Below, piece by piece: positions 31,511-36,325 of a DNA stretch of 64,000 nt. Both the position numbers and the translations under genes were made by a program. The stretch's first letter is position 1; each line of letters opens with the position of its first letter. The notes below the pieces were generated by a model. The model had not been told where the DNA came from and ran no database searches. It saw only the letters and a list, made by a program, of their open reading frames with translations. Source of the DNA: Betaproteobacteria bacterium (GTDB taxonomy: Bacteria; Pseudomonadota; Gammaproteobacteria; Burkholderiales; Casimicrobiaceae); NCBI GenBank assembly GCA_016192065.1, contig JACPUX010000021.1, positions 62,001-126,000 on the forward strand, read 5' to 3'.

Positions 31511-32265
31511 GGCAGAATTTTCTCGTGGATGCGCATTATCTCGAGCGCATCGTCGCGAGCATTGCGCCGAAAGTCGGAGACAATCTGGTGGAGATCGGGC
31601 CGGGGATGGCCGCACTCACCCGGCGCTTGATCGCGCGCTGCGGGCGCGTAATCGCGGTGGAGATCGATCGCGATCTGGTGGCGCATTTGCGCGCCGAGTT
31701 TCCGCCTGAAGCACTCGAACTGTTTGAAGCCGACGCGCTGGCTTTTGACTTCGCAAGTCTCGGCAAAGATCTGCGTATCGTCGGCAATCTGCCTTACAAC
31801 ATCTCCACGCCCATCCTCTTCCACCTGGCGGGTTTTGCGCCCCGCCTGCGCGACCTGCACCTCATGCTGCAAAAGGAAGTCGTGCTGCGCATGGCCGCTG
31901 CGCCGGGTACCGCGGACTATGGGCGGCTGTCGGTCATGCTGCAAGCGAGTTTTGCCGTGGAGAAGTTGTTTACCGTGCCGCCGGGGGCTTTTCGGCCGGC
32001 ACCCAAAGTCGATTCCATGGTCGTGCGTCTCGTGCCGCTCGCGGAACGCGCGCCGCACATCGCGGACGCCAAGTTGTTTGCGGCGCTGGTGGCCGCAGCC
32101 TTCGGTCAACGGCGCAAGACCTTGCGCAACACCTTGGCGCCTTGGTTCGATGCCGCTGGTCTCGAGGCCTTGGAAGTGAATCCTGGTGCGCGGGGCGAGA
32201 CGCTTTGCGTGGCCGATTACGTGCGCTTGGCCAACGCAGTTATGCTCAAGCCGGCGGCTCTTTAG
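31483..32265 (+). CDS. rsmA: 16S rRNA (adenine(1518)-N6/adenine(1519)-N6)-dimethyltransferase
   Basis: 260 residues. HTPRRRFGQNFLVD is the invariant KsgA/RsmA start, followed by the SAM-binding VEIGPGMAALTRRL and the catalytic NLPYNISTPILF. The C-terminal domain is complete. The enzyme dimethylates two adenosines near the 3' end of 16S rRNA, a late checkpoint in small-subunit assembly. The start at 31483 is set by the conserved N-terminus. Its end overlaps the convergent ampG gene by 20 bases. Confidence 0.97.
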   Translation: MKHTPRRRFGQNFLVDAHYLERIVASIAPKVGDNLVEIGPGMAALTRRLIARCGRVIAVEIDRDLVAHLRAEFPPEALELFEADALAFDFASLGKDLRIVGNLPYNISTPILFHLAGFAPRLRDLHLMLQKEVVLRMAAAPGTADYGRLSVMLQASFAVEKLFTVPPGAFRPAPKVDSMVVRLVPLAERAPHIADAKLFAALVAAAFGQRRKTLRNTLAPWFDAAGLEALEVNPGARGETLCVADYVRLANAVMLKPAAL

Positions 32266-33514
32266 CGGGTGTCGGCGCTTCTTCCCGCCACGGTGCGACC
32301 TTCAGGAGCAGCAACATCCCGGGCACGGCCAGGACCGTGCAGAGCAGGAAGAAGTTCAACCAGCCCATCTGCTCCACGATCCAGCCGGTGGTGGCATTGA
32401 TCAGCGTGCGGGGGATGGCCATGAAGCTCGTGAACAAAGCGAACTGCGTGGCCGTATAGGGCGGATGCGTGGCTCGGGCGATAAAGGCCACGAACGCGGC
32501 CGTCCCCAAACCTACACCGAGGTATTCCGCGCCGATGACCAGGCCCAAGTCCCAGCCGCTGGGCTGGGGCAGCGAAGCGAGCCAGGCAAAGCCCAGGATG
32601 GTCACCAACTGCACCACGCCGAAAACCCACAAAGCGCGGTTGATGCCCAGTTTCAACATCCAAATCCCGCCCAACAGGCCACCCACCACCGTGGCCCAGA
32701 GGCCGACGTTCTTGGCGATCAAGCCGATGTCGGTTTTGCTGAAACCTTTTTCAAGATAGAACGGGGTGGACAGCGCCGTGGCCATACTGTCGCCCAGCTT
32801 GTAGAGAAAGATGAAGGCGAGGATGGTGAGCGCAGCCGCCCAGCCCGAGCGCTGGACAAATTCGCGGAACGGTTCGACCACCGCTTCCCGCAGCGTCTTG
32901 GGGCCTTCTTTGGCGAGCTCTGGTTCGCCCACCAACAGCGTCATGGCGATGCCGGGCAACATGAACAAGGCGGTAATGAAGAACACCGATGACCAAGGCA
33001 GATGGTCAGCGAGGATCAGCGACAAGGCACCGGGCACCAGCCCCGCAATGCGATAGGCGTTGATGTGCAGTGCATTGCCCAGGCCCAGTTCGGCGTCGGG
33101 TAAAATCTCGCGCCGAAAAGCGTCGAGCGCGATATCTTGAGTGGCACTGAAAAAGGCCACCGCGGCGGCGAGATAGGCGATGGCCCACAAATCCCGGCCG
33201 GGCGAGAACGCGCCCAGGGCGGTGATGGAGGCGAGCAGCGCGATTTGTGTGGCCAACATCCAGCCGCGACGGCGGCCCAGCGGCAGGGCATAACGATCGA
33301 TAAAAGGCGACCAGAGAAACTTCCAGGTGTAGGGTAGTTGCACCAGAGCGAAGAGACCGATGGCCTTGAGATCGATCTGTTCGGTCTTCAACCAAGCCGG
33401 TACCAGGTTGATGAGGAGATACAGCGGCAGTCCGGAGCTAAAGCCCGTAAATAGGCAAATCAACATGCGGCGGTTGAACAACGCCTCACGCAGTGTCTGG
33501 CCCGAAGCGCTCAT
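32246..33514 (-). CDS. ampG: Muropeptide permease AmpG (major facilitator)
   Basis: 422 residues with about 12 membrane segments. MLICLFTGFSSGLPLYLL, LPYTWKFLWSPFIDRYALP and FFSATQDIALDAFRREIL match AmpG well. AmpG imports anhydromuropeptides from cell-wall turnover; the AmgK/MurU pair at 57-58 kb uses the MurNAc released from them, so the two loci belong to one recycling pathway. Third gene of the metX-metW-ampG series, overlapping metW by 4 bases. Confidence 0.9.
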   Translation of the reverse strand: MSASGQTLREALFNRRMLICLFTGFSSGLPLYLLINLVPAWLKTEQIDLKAIGLFALVQLPYTWKFLWSPFIDRYALPLGRRRGWMLATQIALLASITALGAFSPGRDLWAIAYLAAAVAFFSATQDIALDAFRREILPDAELGLGNALHINAYRIAGLVPGALSLILADHLPWSSVFFITALFMLPGIAMTLLVGEPELAKEGPKTLREAVVEPFREFVQRSGWAAALTILAFIFLYKLGDSMATALSTPFYLEKGFSKTDIGLIAKNVGLWATVVGGLLGGIWMLKLGINRALWVFGVVQLVTILGFAWLASLPQPSGWDLGLVIGAEYLGVGLGTAAFVAFIARATHPPYTATQFALFTSFMAIPRTLINATTGWIVEQMGWLNFFLLCTVLAVPGMLLLLKVAPWREEAPTPAKEPPA

Positions 33515-34104
33515 CGACCAAGCGCCCGGCGGATGCGATACACGGCCAAAGTGCCCAAGCAGTTGGGCAGCAGCTTAACTTCCTGTCCGTCATGCAGCAC
33601 GCGCCTATCCAAAACTTCGAGTCGCCGCTGGGCGCAGAAATCGTCGAAGTCGTGCACGGTGCATAGGTGGATGTTGGGCGTGTCGTACCATTGGTAAGGC
33701 AGATCCTTGGAGACCGGCATGTGCCCGCGCAGAATTTGCCAGCGGTGCTTCCAATGGCCGAAATTGGGAAAGCTGACGATGGCCTCGCGCCCAACACGCA
33801 GCATCTCCAGCACGATTTCTTCGGTGTGGCGCATCGCCTGCAGCGTCTGCGAAAGAACCACGTAATCGAAGGAGGCGTCTTCGAAACCGGAGAGCCCGGC
33901 CTCGAGGTTGCTTTGTACCACCGAGACCCCGTTCTTTACGCAAGCGAGTACCGAGGCGTCGTCGATTTCCACCCCATAACCGGAAATCTGGCGGTGCTCA
34001 CGCAAATAGGCGAGCAGGCCGCCGTCGCCGCAGCCCAAGTCCAGGACCTGCGCACGGGGGCGGATCCATTCGGCGATCAAGGAATAATCGGGGCGGATGT
34101 TCAT
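33511..34104 (-). CDS. metW: Methionine biosynthesis protein MetW
   Basis: 197 residues. [26 protein letters not shown] has the SAM-dependent methyltransferase fold motif, and [24 protein letters not shown] plus [11 protein letters not shown] are MetW-specific. MetW is always paired with MetX in such bacteria and is needed for full acyltransferase function. It overlaps metX by 4 bases (ATGA). Confidence 0.95.
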
Positions 34105-35252
34105 GACGAAAGCTCCGCCGCAATGCGGTCGAAGTAAGCCCGCACCAGAGCGTGGTAACGCGCGTCGTCCAGTAGAAAGGCGTCGTGGCCGTGGGGTGCG
34201 TCGATTTCGGCGTAGCTCACGTCGCGGCGGTTGTCGATCAGGGCTTTGACGATTTCGCGTGAGCGCTGGGGCGAGAACCGCCAGTCGGTGGTGAAGGCAA
34301 CCACCAGGAAGCTCGCGCGCGCGGCTTCCAGCGCTCGGCGCAAATCGCCTCCCGTGGCCGCGGCAGGATCGAAATAATCGAGCGCCTTGGTGATGCGCAA
34401 ATAGGTGTTGGCGTCGAAGTATTCCGAGAACTTGTCGCCTTGGTAGCGCAAATAGGATTCGATCTGGAATTCCGGCTCGAAGGTGTAGCGCAGTCCATTG
34501 CGCAACTGCCGACCGAATTTCTCGGCCATCTGATCGTCGGAAAGATAGGTGATGTGGCCAATCATGCGCGCCACGCGCAAGCCGCGCCGGGGCTTGACGG
34601 CGGCATCGTAAAAATGTCCGGCATGGAACTCCGGGTCGGTCATAATGGCGGCGCGCGCCACCTCGTTGAAGGCGATGTTCTGCGCCGACAAGTTGGGTGC
34701 CGCGGCGATCACCAGCGCATGCGCCACGCGCTGCGGGTGACGGATGGTCCAGGCCAGCGCTTGCATGCCACCGAGGCTGCCGCCCATCACCGCAGCGAAG
34801 CGCTCGATGCCCAGATGATCGGCGACGCGCACCTGGGCATCGACCCAGTCTTCCACCGTCACCACGGGAAAGTCCGCGCCATAGGGTTTACCGGTCGCCG
34901 GGTGGAGATCCATCGGTCCGGTGGAGCCAAAACACGAGCCCAGATTGTTCACCCCGACGACGAAGAAGCGATTGGTATCCACCGGCTTGCCTGGACCGAC
35001 CATGTTATCCCACCAACCCTCGCTGTTGGCTTGATCGGCGTACACGCCGGCCACGTGATGCGAGGCGTTGAGCGCATGGCAGATCAAAACCGCGTTGTCG
35101 CGCGCCGCATTCAGTTCGCCATAGGTTTCGATCATCAGGTGATAGGGGCCGAAGGCGCGCCCGCAGGCCAGCGGCAGCGGCTCTTCAAAATCGACGCGCT
35201 GCGGCGTGACCTCACCCACAGTCGCGTTCGGAAAGGGTGGAGCAGGGGGCAT
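34101..35252 (-). CDS. metX: Homoserine O-acyltransferase MetX
   Basis: 383 residues, alpha/beta hydrolase fold. The nucleophile lies in [13 protein letters not shown], and DGHDAFL-like [10 protein letters not shown] near the C-terminus carries the catalytic His. It acylates homoserine in the first committed step of methionine synthesis; proteins of this MetX/MetW type often prefer succinyl-CoA, which cannot be decided here. Upstream lie a SAM-II-like aptamer and a terminator, so expression should fall when SAM is plentiful. Confidence 0.95.
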
Positions 35253-35263
35253 GGATATCCCAA

Positions 35264-35296
35264 CAAAAAAGCCCGACCAGCTTGGCTAATCGGGCT
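35264..35296 (-). terminator. Intrinsic terminator in the metX leader
   Basis: On the minus strand AGCCCGA (35296-35290) pairs with TCGGGCT (35276-35270), followed by six T residues. It ends about 12 bases before the metX ATG, so it must be conditional: it is the likely expression platform of the riboswitch just upstream. Confidence 0.85.
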
Positions 35297-35301
35297 TCTC
35301 A

Positions 35302-35378
35302 CCTCGCTTTAGCAGTTTTTGCGGCGACCCGACGCTCCGGCCACCGCGCGCCCGCAAGCTGATCTCAAATCGGCGCCC
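35302..35378 (-). ncRNA. SAM-II-like riboswitch aptamer upstream of metX
   Basis: The minus strand shows the SAM-II core in order: P1 5' strand GCGCC, then GATTTGA, GCTTGC, P1 3' strand GGCGC, an A-rich segment GCAAAAAC and GCTAAA. Between the P1 3' strand and the A-rich segment there is an extra hairpin (GGTGGCC/GGTCGCC with two G-U pairs). Position before metX, predicted start of transcription exactly at P1 and a terminator right after all support the call. I identified it by motif memory, not by a covariance search. Confidence 0.65.
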
Positions 35379-35383
35379 CGCAA

Positions 35384-35412
35384 AGTTAACCGGTGCAGGG
35401 GGCGGTTGTCAA
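35384..35412 (-). promoter_or_regulatory. Promoter of the metX-metW-ampG operon
   Basis: Perfect TTGACA (35412-35407), 17 bases, then TTAACT (35389-35384, 3 of 6). Transcription would begin near 35377, precisely at the first base of aptamer stem P1, which supports both calls. Confidence 0.55.
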
Positions 35413-35453
35413 TTGCAAATGACCGCAAAAGATCGGCGGGTTTGGGCCACGCG

Positions 35454-35482
35454 TTGACCGGTTGCGGTCCTGCGCATAAACT
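35454..35482 (+). promoter_or_regulatory. Promoter for the IPTL-CTERM gene
   Basis: TTGACC (35454-35459), 17 bases, TAAACT (35477-35482). It lies 88 bases before the start codon and diverges from the metX promoter. Confidence 0.5.
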
Positions 35483-35569
35483 GCAAAGCTGGTGCGGGAG
35501 ATGAAGAGTCCATAAAGCGAACACCCAACGAATAACTATCGCTGTTTTCCTACCTAAAGAGGAGGAGTC

Positions 35570-36325
35570 ATGCGTGCAAAGTTCTTCTGGTTCTTGCTGA
35601 GTGTGGTGCTGTTTTCAACCGGGGCGAAAGTCGCTCAAGCGCAGTCGAGCTGGGCCACCTTTGCCTATAGCGGCTTTGCCGCAGACTGTGGCGGCAGTTG
35701 CGACACCCAACTCCAGCTCGCCACCAACACGGGCCCGGTTACCTTGACCGCCACCAACCGCGGTTGGGTGAGTTCCACGGGTTCCAATAACGGCTCGAGC
35801 GCAACCAACAGTTACATCGCCGGTTTCTGCAGTAGCACCGATAGTTGCACCGGAGGAAACACGCTCTGGCGCAACTGGTTCGCGTTCGCCCTCCCGGTGG
35901 GCGGTTTCGCCACGATTTCGTCGGCCACGCTTTTGCTCGATGTGCCCGCACCTACAGCTCCGCCGCAAGGGGTCTACAACTTCGGCGGAACGCTCACCTA
36001 TACCGTGTGGGACGTGAGCAGCGCCCCTGCGACGTTTACTAGCAGTGCCGCGGGGCTTGCCGAATACACCGACATCGGGACCGGCACGGCTTATGGATCG
36101 CGCGTGTACGTCCGCGCCGACGAAGGAACGGTAACATCGGTGCCGCTCAATGCCGCGGCGCTGGCCTGGCTCAATACCCAGATCGGCCAGACGGTCGTGG
36201 TGGGGGGCGCCGCGGACTTGGCGCCCTACGGGGCGATACCGACGCTTTCTCCCGCCGCCCTTGCGCTGCTCGCCCTGCTGGTGATGGTGGCCGCAGTTCT
36301 GGTGCGACGGCGCAGTCGAGGCTGA
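35570..36325 (+). CDS. IPTL-CTERM sorted surface protein
   Basis: 251 residues behind a strong ribosome site (AGGAGG). Signal peptide MRAKFFWFLLSVVLFSTGAKVAQA, a Thr/Ser/Gly-rich beta-type domain with cysteine pairs (DCGGSCDT and FCSSTDSC), and a C-terminal sorting signal: IPTLSPAAL, then a hydrophobic helix LALLALLVMVAAVLV and RRRSRG. This tripartite tail is the IPTL-CTERM pattern, recognised by a dedicated sorting enzyme not found in this window. The middle part resembles no enzyme I know; likely an extracellular or exopolysaccharide-associated protein. Confidence 0.85.
   Translation: MRAKFFWFLLSVVLFSTGAKVAQAQSSWATFAYSGFAADCGGSCDTQLQLATNTGPVTLTATNRGWVSSTGSNNGSSATNSYIAGFCSSTDSCTGGNTLWRNWFAFALPVGGFATISSATLLLDVPAPTAPPQGVYNFGGTLTYTVWDVSSAPATFTSSAAGLAEYTDIGTGTAYGSRVYVRADEGTVTSVPLNAAALAWLNTQIGQTVVVGGAADLAPYGAIPTLSPAALALLALLVMVAAVLVRRRSRG

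Follow-up and report, generated by a model that had tools for sequence, protein, structure and literature searches.

Riboswitches of the SAM-II class were described with near-consensus promoters just before the P1 stem and with many terminators, and Bordetella bronchiseptica was listed among their carriers (Corbino 2005, PMC1273637). Its members occur most often among the Alpha-, Beta- and Gammaproteobacteria (Meyer 2009, PMC2704228). Terminators accompany it in both alpha- and betaproteobacteria, the mechanism being called not yet experimentally established (Barrick & Breaker 2007, PMC2258182); for the metZ copy of Sinorhizobium meliloti, termination with SAM is predicted, and more of the short RNA is present in rich medium (PMC9373788). 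Two further descriptions concern the same genes in the same group of bacteria. The metXZ element was described as new in 35 betaproteobacterial genomes and as separate from SAM_alpha (Leyn 2014, PMC4239095), and a transcript of Bp2_Cand287, now RF02424, was detected by RT-PCR (Khoo 2012, PMC3521395). The initial annotation of the locus discussed here presented SAM-II in a betaproteobacterium as a surprise, which was mostly known already (Corbino 2005; Barrick & Breaker 2007; Meyer 2009); the promoter by P1 and the terminators were likewise published between 2005 and 2009, which makes this a find of an ordinary kind. What the locus adds is a small extra hairpin and an on/off pairing with the terminator, the pairing being well supported.

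The window, a stretch of 64,000 nucleotides from a betaproteobacterial contig (JACPUX010000021.1), carries on its minus strand a complete SAM-II core (35376-35308) upstream of a terminator and the genes metX, metW and ampG (Table 1). Inspection of the sequence finds GATTTGA, GCTTGC, GGCGC, an A-rich strand and GCTAAA in the order initially claimed. The leader begins with TTGACA-17 nt-TTAACT-TTGCGGG, followed by GCGCC GATTTGA GATCA GCTTGC G GGCGC, and continues through the hairpin GCGGTGGCC...GGTCGCCGC and AAAAACT GCTAAA to the terminator GAAGCCCGATTAGC CAA GCTGGTCGGGCTTTTTT; the metX start codon lies 12 bases past the terminator T-run.

Table 1. Features of the metX leader and downstream genes in the window.
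Feature	Position	Strand	Remarks
Promoter	35383..35412	-	-35 TTGACA 35412-35407; -10 TTAACT/TAACTT 35389-35383; transcript predicted to begin at P1 or immediately ahead of it
P1 5' strand GCGCC	35372..35376	-	covariance model alignment
Conserved L1 GATTTGA	35365..35371	-	ATTTG invariant in 37/37 aligned relatives
Loop tail and P2 5' strand GATCAGCTTGC	35354..35364	-	TTGC invariant; 35364-35355 doubles as first strand of the candidate antiterminator
GCTTGC	35354..35359	-	read from sequence
P1 3' strand GGCGC	35348..35352	-	covariance model alignment
Inserted hairpin, 9 bp	35321..35347	-	35347-35339 paired with 35329-35321, two G-U
A-rich L3 strand AAAAACT	35314..35320	-	shorter than usual NNNANAAATNCN; comparison with relatives
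P2 3' strand GCTAAA	35308..35313	-	invariant among aligned relatives; GCTAA can pair with terminator TTAGC
Intrinsic terminator, 14-bp stem and T6	35265..35298	-	RNAfold -21.6 kcal/mol
Terminator segments TTAGC and CAAGCTGGTC	35285..35289 and 35275..35284	-	complementary to P2 strands
metX	34101..35252	-	best model homoserine O-succinyltransferase MetX, NF047916 (NCBIfam)
metW	33511..34104	-	4-base overlap with metX
ampG-family muropeptide transporter gene	32246..33514	-	4-base overlap with metW

The -35 hexamer of the promoter is perfect and the -10 hexamer weak, and a simple promoter/terminator scan of 35200-35560 called neither element on the minus strand; the terminator was probably missed because the extension of its stem consumes the T-run. 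The placement of the predicted transcription start at P1 finds backing in the relatives: about 46 of 72 have strict -10-like hexamers 12-22 nt upstream of P1, the remainder of the region being unconserved. Another promoter-like site (35454-35482) lies near a divergent open reading frame (35570-36325, plus strand) encoding a secreted-type protein; the protein ends in IPTLSPAALALLALLVMVAAVLVRRRSRG, which we take to resemble an IPTL-CTERM sorting tail.

Rfam model SAM_alpha (RF00521) scores the element at 15.0 bits, under its cut-off of 36, because the inserted 9-bp hairpin sets P1 and the A-rich strand apart; the cut-off is a threshold of the database and no structural feature. Searches of the whole window at the Rfam gathering thresholds and at an E-value of 0.01 returned no match, and no match to the SAM-II long loops (RF01726) or SAM-V (RF01826) models was reported on 35100-35600 at E up to 5, nor for the test loci. 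Conservation of the core in relatives stood: of 80 metX loci chosen by protein similarity alone, 71 carry it ahead of the gene. Relatives free of the hairpin match SAM_alpha well (43.1 bits in L002 and 44.3 bits in L084), and 36 of 200 Burkholderiales genomes have an RF00521 match above the cut-off, against no match in 14 control genomes. A model of betaproteobacterial copies scores the P1 part of the window element at 31.2 bits (E 2e-7), and model R1, built from such copies only, reaches E 0.001 in 140 of the 200 Burkholderiales genomes. R1 matches, found in 58 of 299 genomes in all, reach other classes of the phylum. They include alphaproteobacterial-type copies with the typical P1 GTGGC/GCCAC (L110 and L118, followed by genes that look metZ-like by eye) and a copy before metK (L108). 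Since RF00521 finds betaproteobacterial copies and the beta-only model finds alpha-type SAM-II, the assignment holds both ways. Limnobacter-type metX loci (L013, L014, L061, L067 and L078) have no SAM-II core, and metX is probably regulated otherwise there.

The P1 stem covaries, its outer pair alternating between A-U, C-G and U-A, with a covariation score reached by none of 500 shuffles; a variant P1, GCGTC/GACGC, occurs in L108 and L170. The two strands of the P2 pseudoknot, TTGC and GCTAA, are both present and never vary in the alignment, so the evidence for P2 is its identity to the SAM-II class and not covariation. The letters of the ligand pocket (ATTT, TTGC and GCTAAA) are conserved in the relatives and present in the window; in the crystal structure of SAM-II, these are presumably the positions in contact with SAM. 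In most core-bearing metX relatives the segment from P1 to GCTAA is exactly 12 nt long, with the consensus NNNANAAATNCN; the crystallised SAM-II metX aptamer has UGAUAAAUGUA there. The L3 strand of the window is shortened, and affinity could therefore be reduced. A genome of the same genus (MetX 96% identical) shares the short L3 and retains the aptamer, the hairpin and the terminator. Taken together, these comparisons bear out the initial assignment: judged by its sequence, the element is a genuine SAM-II riboswitch that carries an inserted hairpin, is ordinary in function and presumably binds SAM.

The additional stem outside the minimal pseudoknot is present as initially proposed, with a length of 9 bp instead of 7 bp and a z-score of -3.4 against dinucleotide shuffles. 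Most core-bearing metX relatives lack it. About 25 relatives carry a hairpin at this site; a long stretch separates P1 from GCTAA in 25 leaders, and in almost every one it forms a single hairpin there (median z -3.2). The covariation sought in related leaders was found in 14 distinct Paraburkholderia/Burkholderia copies, where two stem positions vary on both sides (U-A/G-C and C-G/U-A) and pairing holds in 92% of cells, compared with 20-51% after sliding; 11 of 1000 shuffles score as high. In the same-genus relative the hairpin has one A.C mismatch and one G-U pair improved to G-C. A MAFFT alignment of the hairpin-bearing leaders was misaligned, with the window slice ending before GCTAAA, and is excluded from these counts. 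A search for evidence of a regulatory role of the hairpin found none beyond tolerated insertion, and we take it to be a tolerated add-on between P1 and L3. Insertions of this kind push real SAM-II copies under the Rfam cut-off.

The terminator announced after the aptamer is there and is kept in the same-genus genome. An intrinsic terminator is found nearby in 147 of 170 distinct leaders, which lends comparative support to control by transcription termination. Both strands of the P2 pseudoknot are complementary to this terminator. In the window, GATCAGCTTG, comprising the tail of L1 and the P2 5' strand (35364-35355), can pair with CAAGCTGGTC, which spans the terminator loop and 3' arm, in a 10-bp helix that includes one G-U (E -16 kcal/mol, z -5.2). 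GCTAA of the P2 3' strand is complementary to TTAGC in the terminator 5' arm, giving a second helix that is nested with the first and adjacent to it. Over the set of leaders, the P2 5' strand attains a helix score of 14.9 with its own terminator against 9.2 for stem-preserving shuffles, and the P2 3' strand 8.0 against 2.2. The motif TTRGC occurs in 63 terminators, compared with 27 for its reversed, 7 for its complemented and 12 for its reverse-complemented form. Aptamers and terminators score 1203 with their own partners and 1100 +/- 24 with permuted ones, none of 500 permutations being as high. None of these figures is corrected for the relatedness of the leaders, so that the p-values overstate independence. 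Compensatory pairs are seen in GTTCAGC/GCTGAAC of L088 and GATCAGC/GCTGATC of L126, and in GCTAAATC/GATTTGGC of L063 as against GCTAAAGA/TCTTTGGC of L071 and L080. The P2 strands are thus complementary to the terminator beyond chance, a well-supported result that makes them a concrete candidate for the antiterminator.

In the mechanism we propose, transcription would begin at P1 or immediately ahead of it. When SAM is present, P1 and the P2 pseudoknot (TTGC with GCTAA) would close around the ligand, the downstream terminator would fold and the operon would be off; with SAM absent, the freed P2 strands would pair with the terminator (GATCAGCTTG/CAAGCTGGTC and GCTAA/TTAGC), block its folding and let transcription continue. 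Energy calculations favour the terminator fold of the full-length leader over the antiterminator by 10 kcal/mol, even ligand-free, and the antiterminator ranks first only at a transcript length of about 104 nt, so that switching of this kind must be kinetic, decided during transcription. We consider it probable that the SAM-II riboswitch controls transcription of metX-metW-ampG by such P2/terminator antitermination; most likely, abundant S-adenosylmethionine makes it switch off this operon for methionine synthesis.

The complementarity might instead be a by-product in a SAM-II riboswitch whose terminator works without this antiterminator, the switch being set by P2 alone or by a helix between CTTGC and GCGAGG, which sits just after GCTAAA. 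The minimum free energy fold of the full leader does contain a helix around CTTGC/GCGAG together with the terminator, and about half of the leaders, L092 of the same genome among them, have no significant antiterminator of the proposed form. Own partners nevertheless outscore permuted and shuffled ones, and the compensatory pairs recur in several leaders, which makes this account unlikely. We give considerably less credence to a diverged relative of SAM-II that binds no SAM, or another ligand such as SAH, the hairpin having altered L3. The shortened L3 and the low Rfam score would agree with such a change, but the core letters are unchanged, the element is conserved within the genus with the same L3, and it precedes a methionine operon.

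Least probable of all is that the DNA encodes a trans-acting or antisense small RNA on the plus strand and no riboswitch, as the RF02424 family would have it. Its model matches the window at 27.7 bits, against a cut-off of 70, on the strand opposite the aptamer, and the candidate has its RT-PCR transcript; that experiment relied on oligo(dT) cDNA (Khoo 2012), which we take as no proof of strand. RF02424 exceeds its cut-off only once in 200 genomes (L170, 1501-1703), and the other strand of this match holds a SAM-II core, a hairpin and a terminator, located between purF-like and metZ-type genes. Most of the weaker matches also sit opposite R1 hits, among the R1 hits listed. We rejected the antisense reading because RF02424 matches oppose SAM-II cores in this way. 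The metXZ element and RF02424 both appear to be the SAM-II riboswitch, RF02424 having been called on the opposite strand. Among the papers searched, none equates either of them with SAM-II, which is no proof that none exists.

The source genome contains three SAM-II copies. Besides the one in the window, a copy precedes a cystathionine gamma-synthase family gene (NF004609; L093, C2:28148-28201), and another, with a terminator, precedes a threonine ammonia-lyase gene (TIGR01127; L092, C61:32040-32093). Both recur in the same-genus genome (L181 and L180, the latter being the threonine ammonia-lyase copy). Threonine ammonia-lyase would not usually be expected under the control of a SAM switch. 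In Burkholderiales, R1 finds as many as 3-4 copies in one genome, and the genes downstream are methionine and SAM genes: among 78 copies of the order sorted by their next long open reading frame, 36 have a Cys/Met-metabolism PLP enzyme in that place, 13-17 have metX, 10 a metH-type gene and 2 metK, some of these picks being in the wrong frame or distant. At four copies (L220, L221, L233 and L259) the longest downstream frame encodes a MATE-family transporter about 600 nt off, with another gene between. We lean, by a narrow measure, towards a large betaproteobacterial SAM-II regulon that would comprise metX, metZ/Y-type, metH-type and metK genes, and threonine ammonia-lyase in the source genus, with a shared antiterminator, the metXZ element and RF02424 being the same RNA, and a hairpin gained inside the aptamer in some branches. 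In such a regulon the two strands of the SAM pocket would each pair with one half of the terminator, and the ligand pocket and the terminator hairpin would be mutually dependent.

The extension of control to ampG, suggested in the initial annotation, is plausible from the 4-base overlaps that join metX to metW and metW to ampG, and from an ampG-like gene downstream on the same strand in 24 of 70 relatives.

Compared with the systems already described, the locus shares with SAM-II (RF00521; Corbino 2005) the P1 stem, the GATTTG loop, the P2 strands, the A-rich L3, the promoter by P1, the terminator and the methionine genes, and differs from it by the hairpin between P1 and L3, the shortened L3 and the resulting low score. 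SAM-II long loops (RF01726; Weinberg 2010, PMC2864571) and SAM-V (RF01826; Meyer 2009) are likewise variants of the SAM-II fold, reported from Bacteroidetes/marine and from marine bacteria, respectively. New here are the apparent identity of metXZ and RF02424 with this riboswitch, the P2-terminator antiterminator with its compensatory changes, which offers a precise and testable switching mechanism for SAM-II terminators, and the two further copies in the source genome. An unplaced element and a probably wrongly stranded Rfam small RNA are thereby tied to a known riboswitch class. The metXZ element has the same site before metXW or metZ in betaproteobacteria and comprises six conserved regions and a terminator, but was published with other pairings and one copy per genome (Leyn 2014). 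RF02424 (Bp2_287) covers the same DNA before metX or metZ in Burkholderiales, but is listed as an sRNA of the other strand (Khoo 2012).
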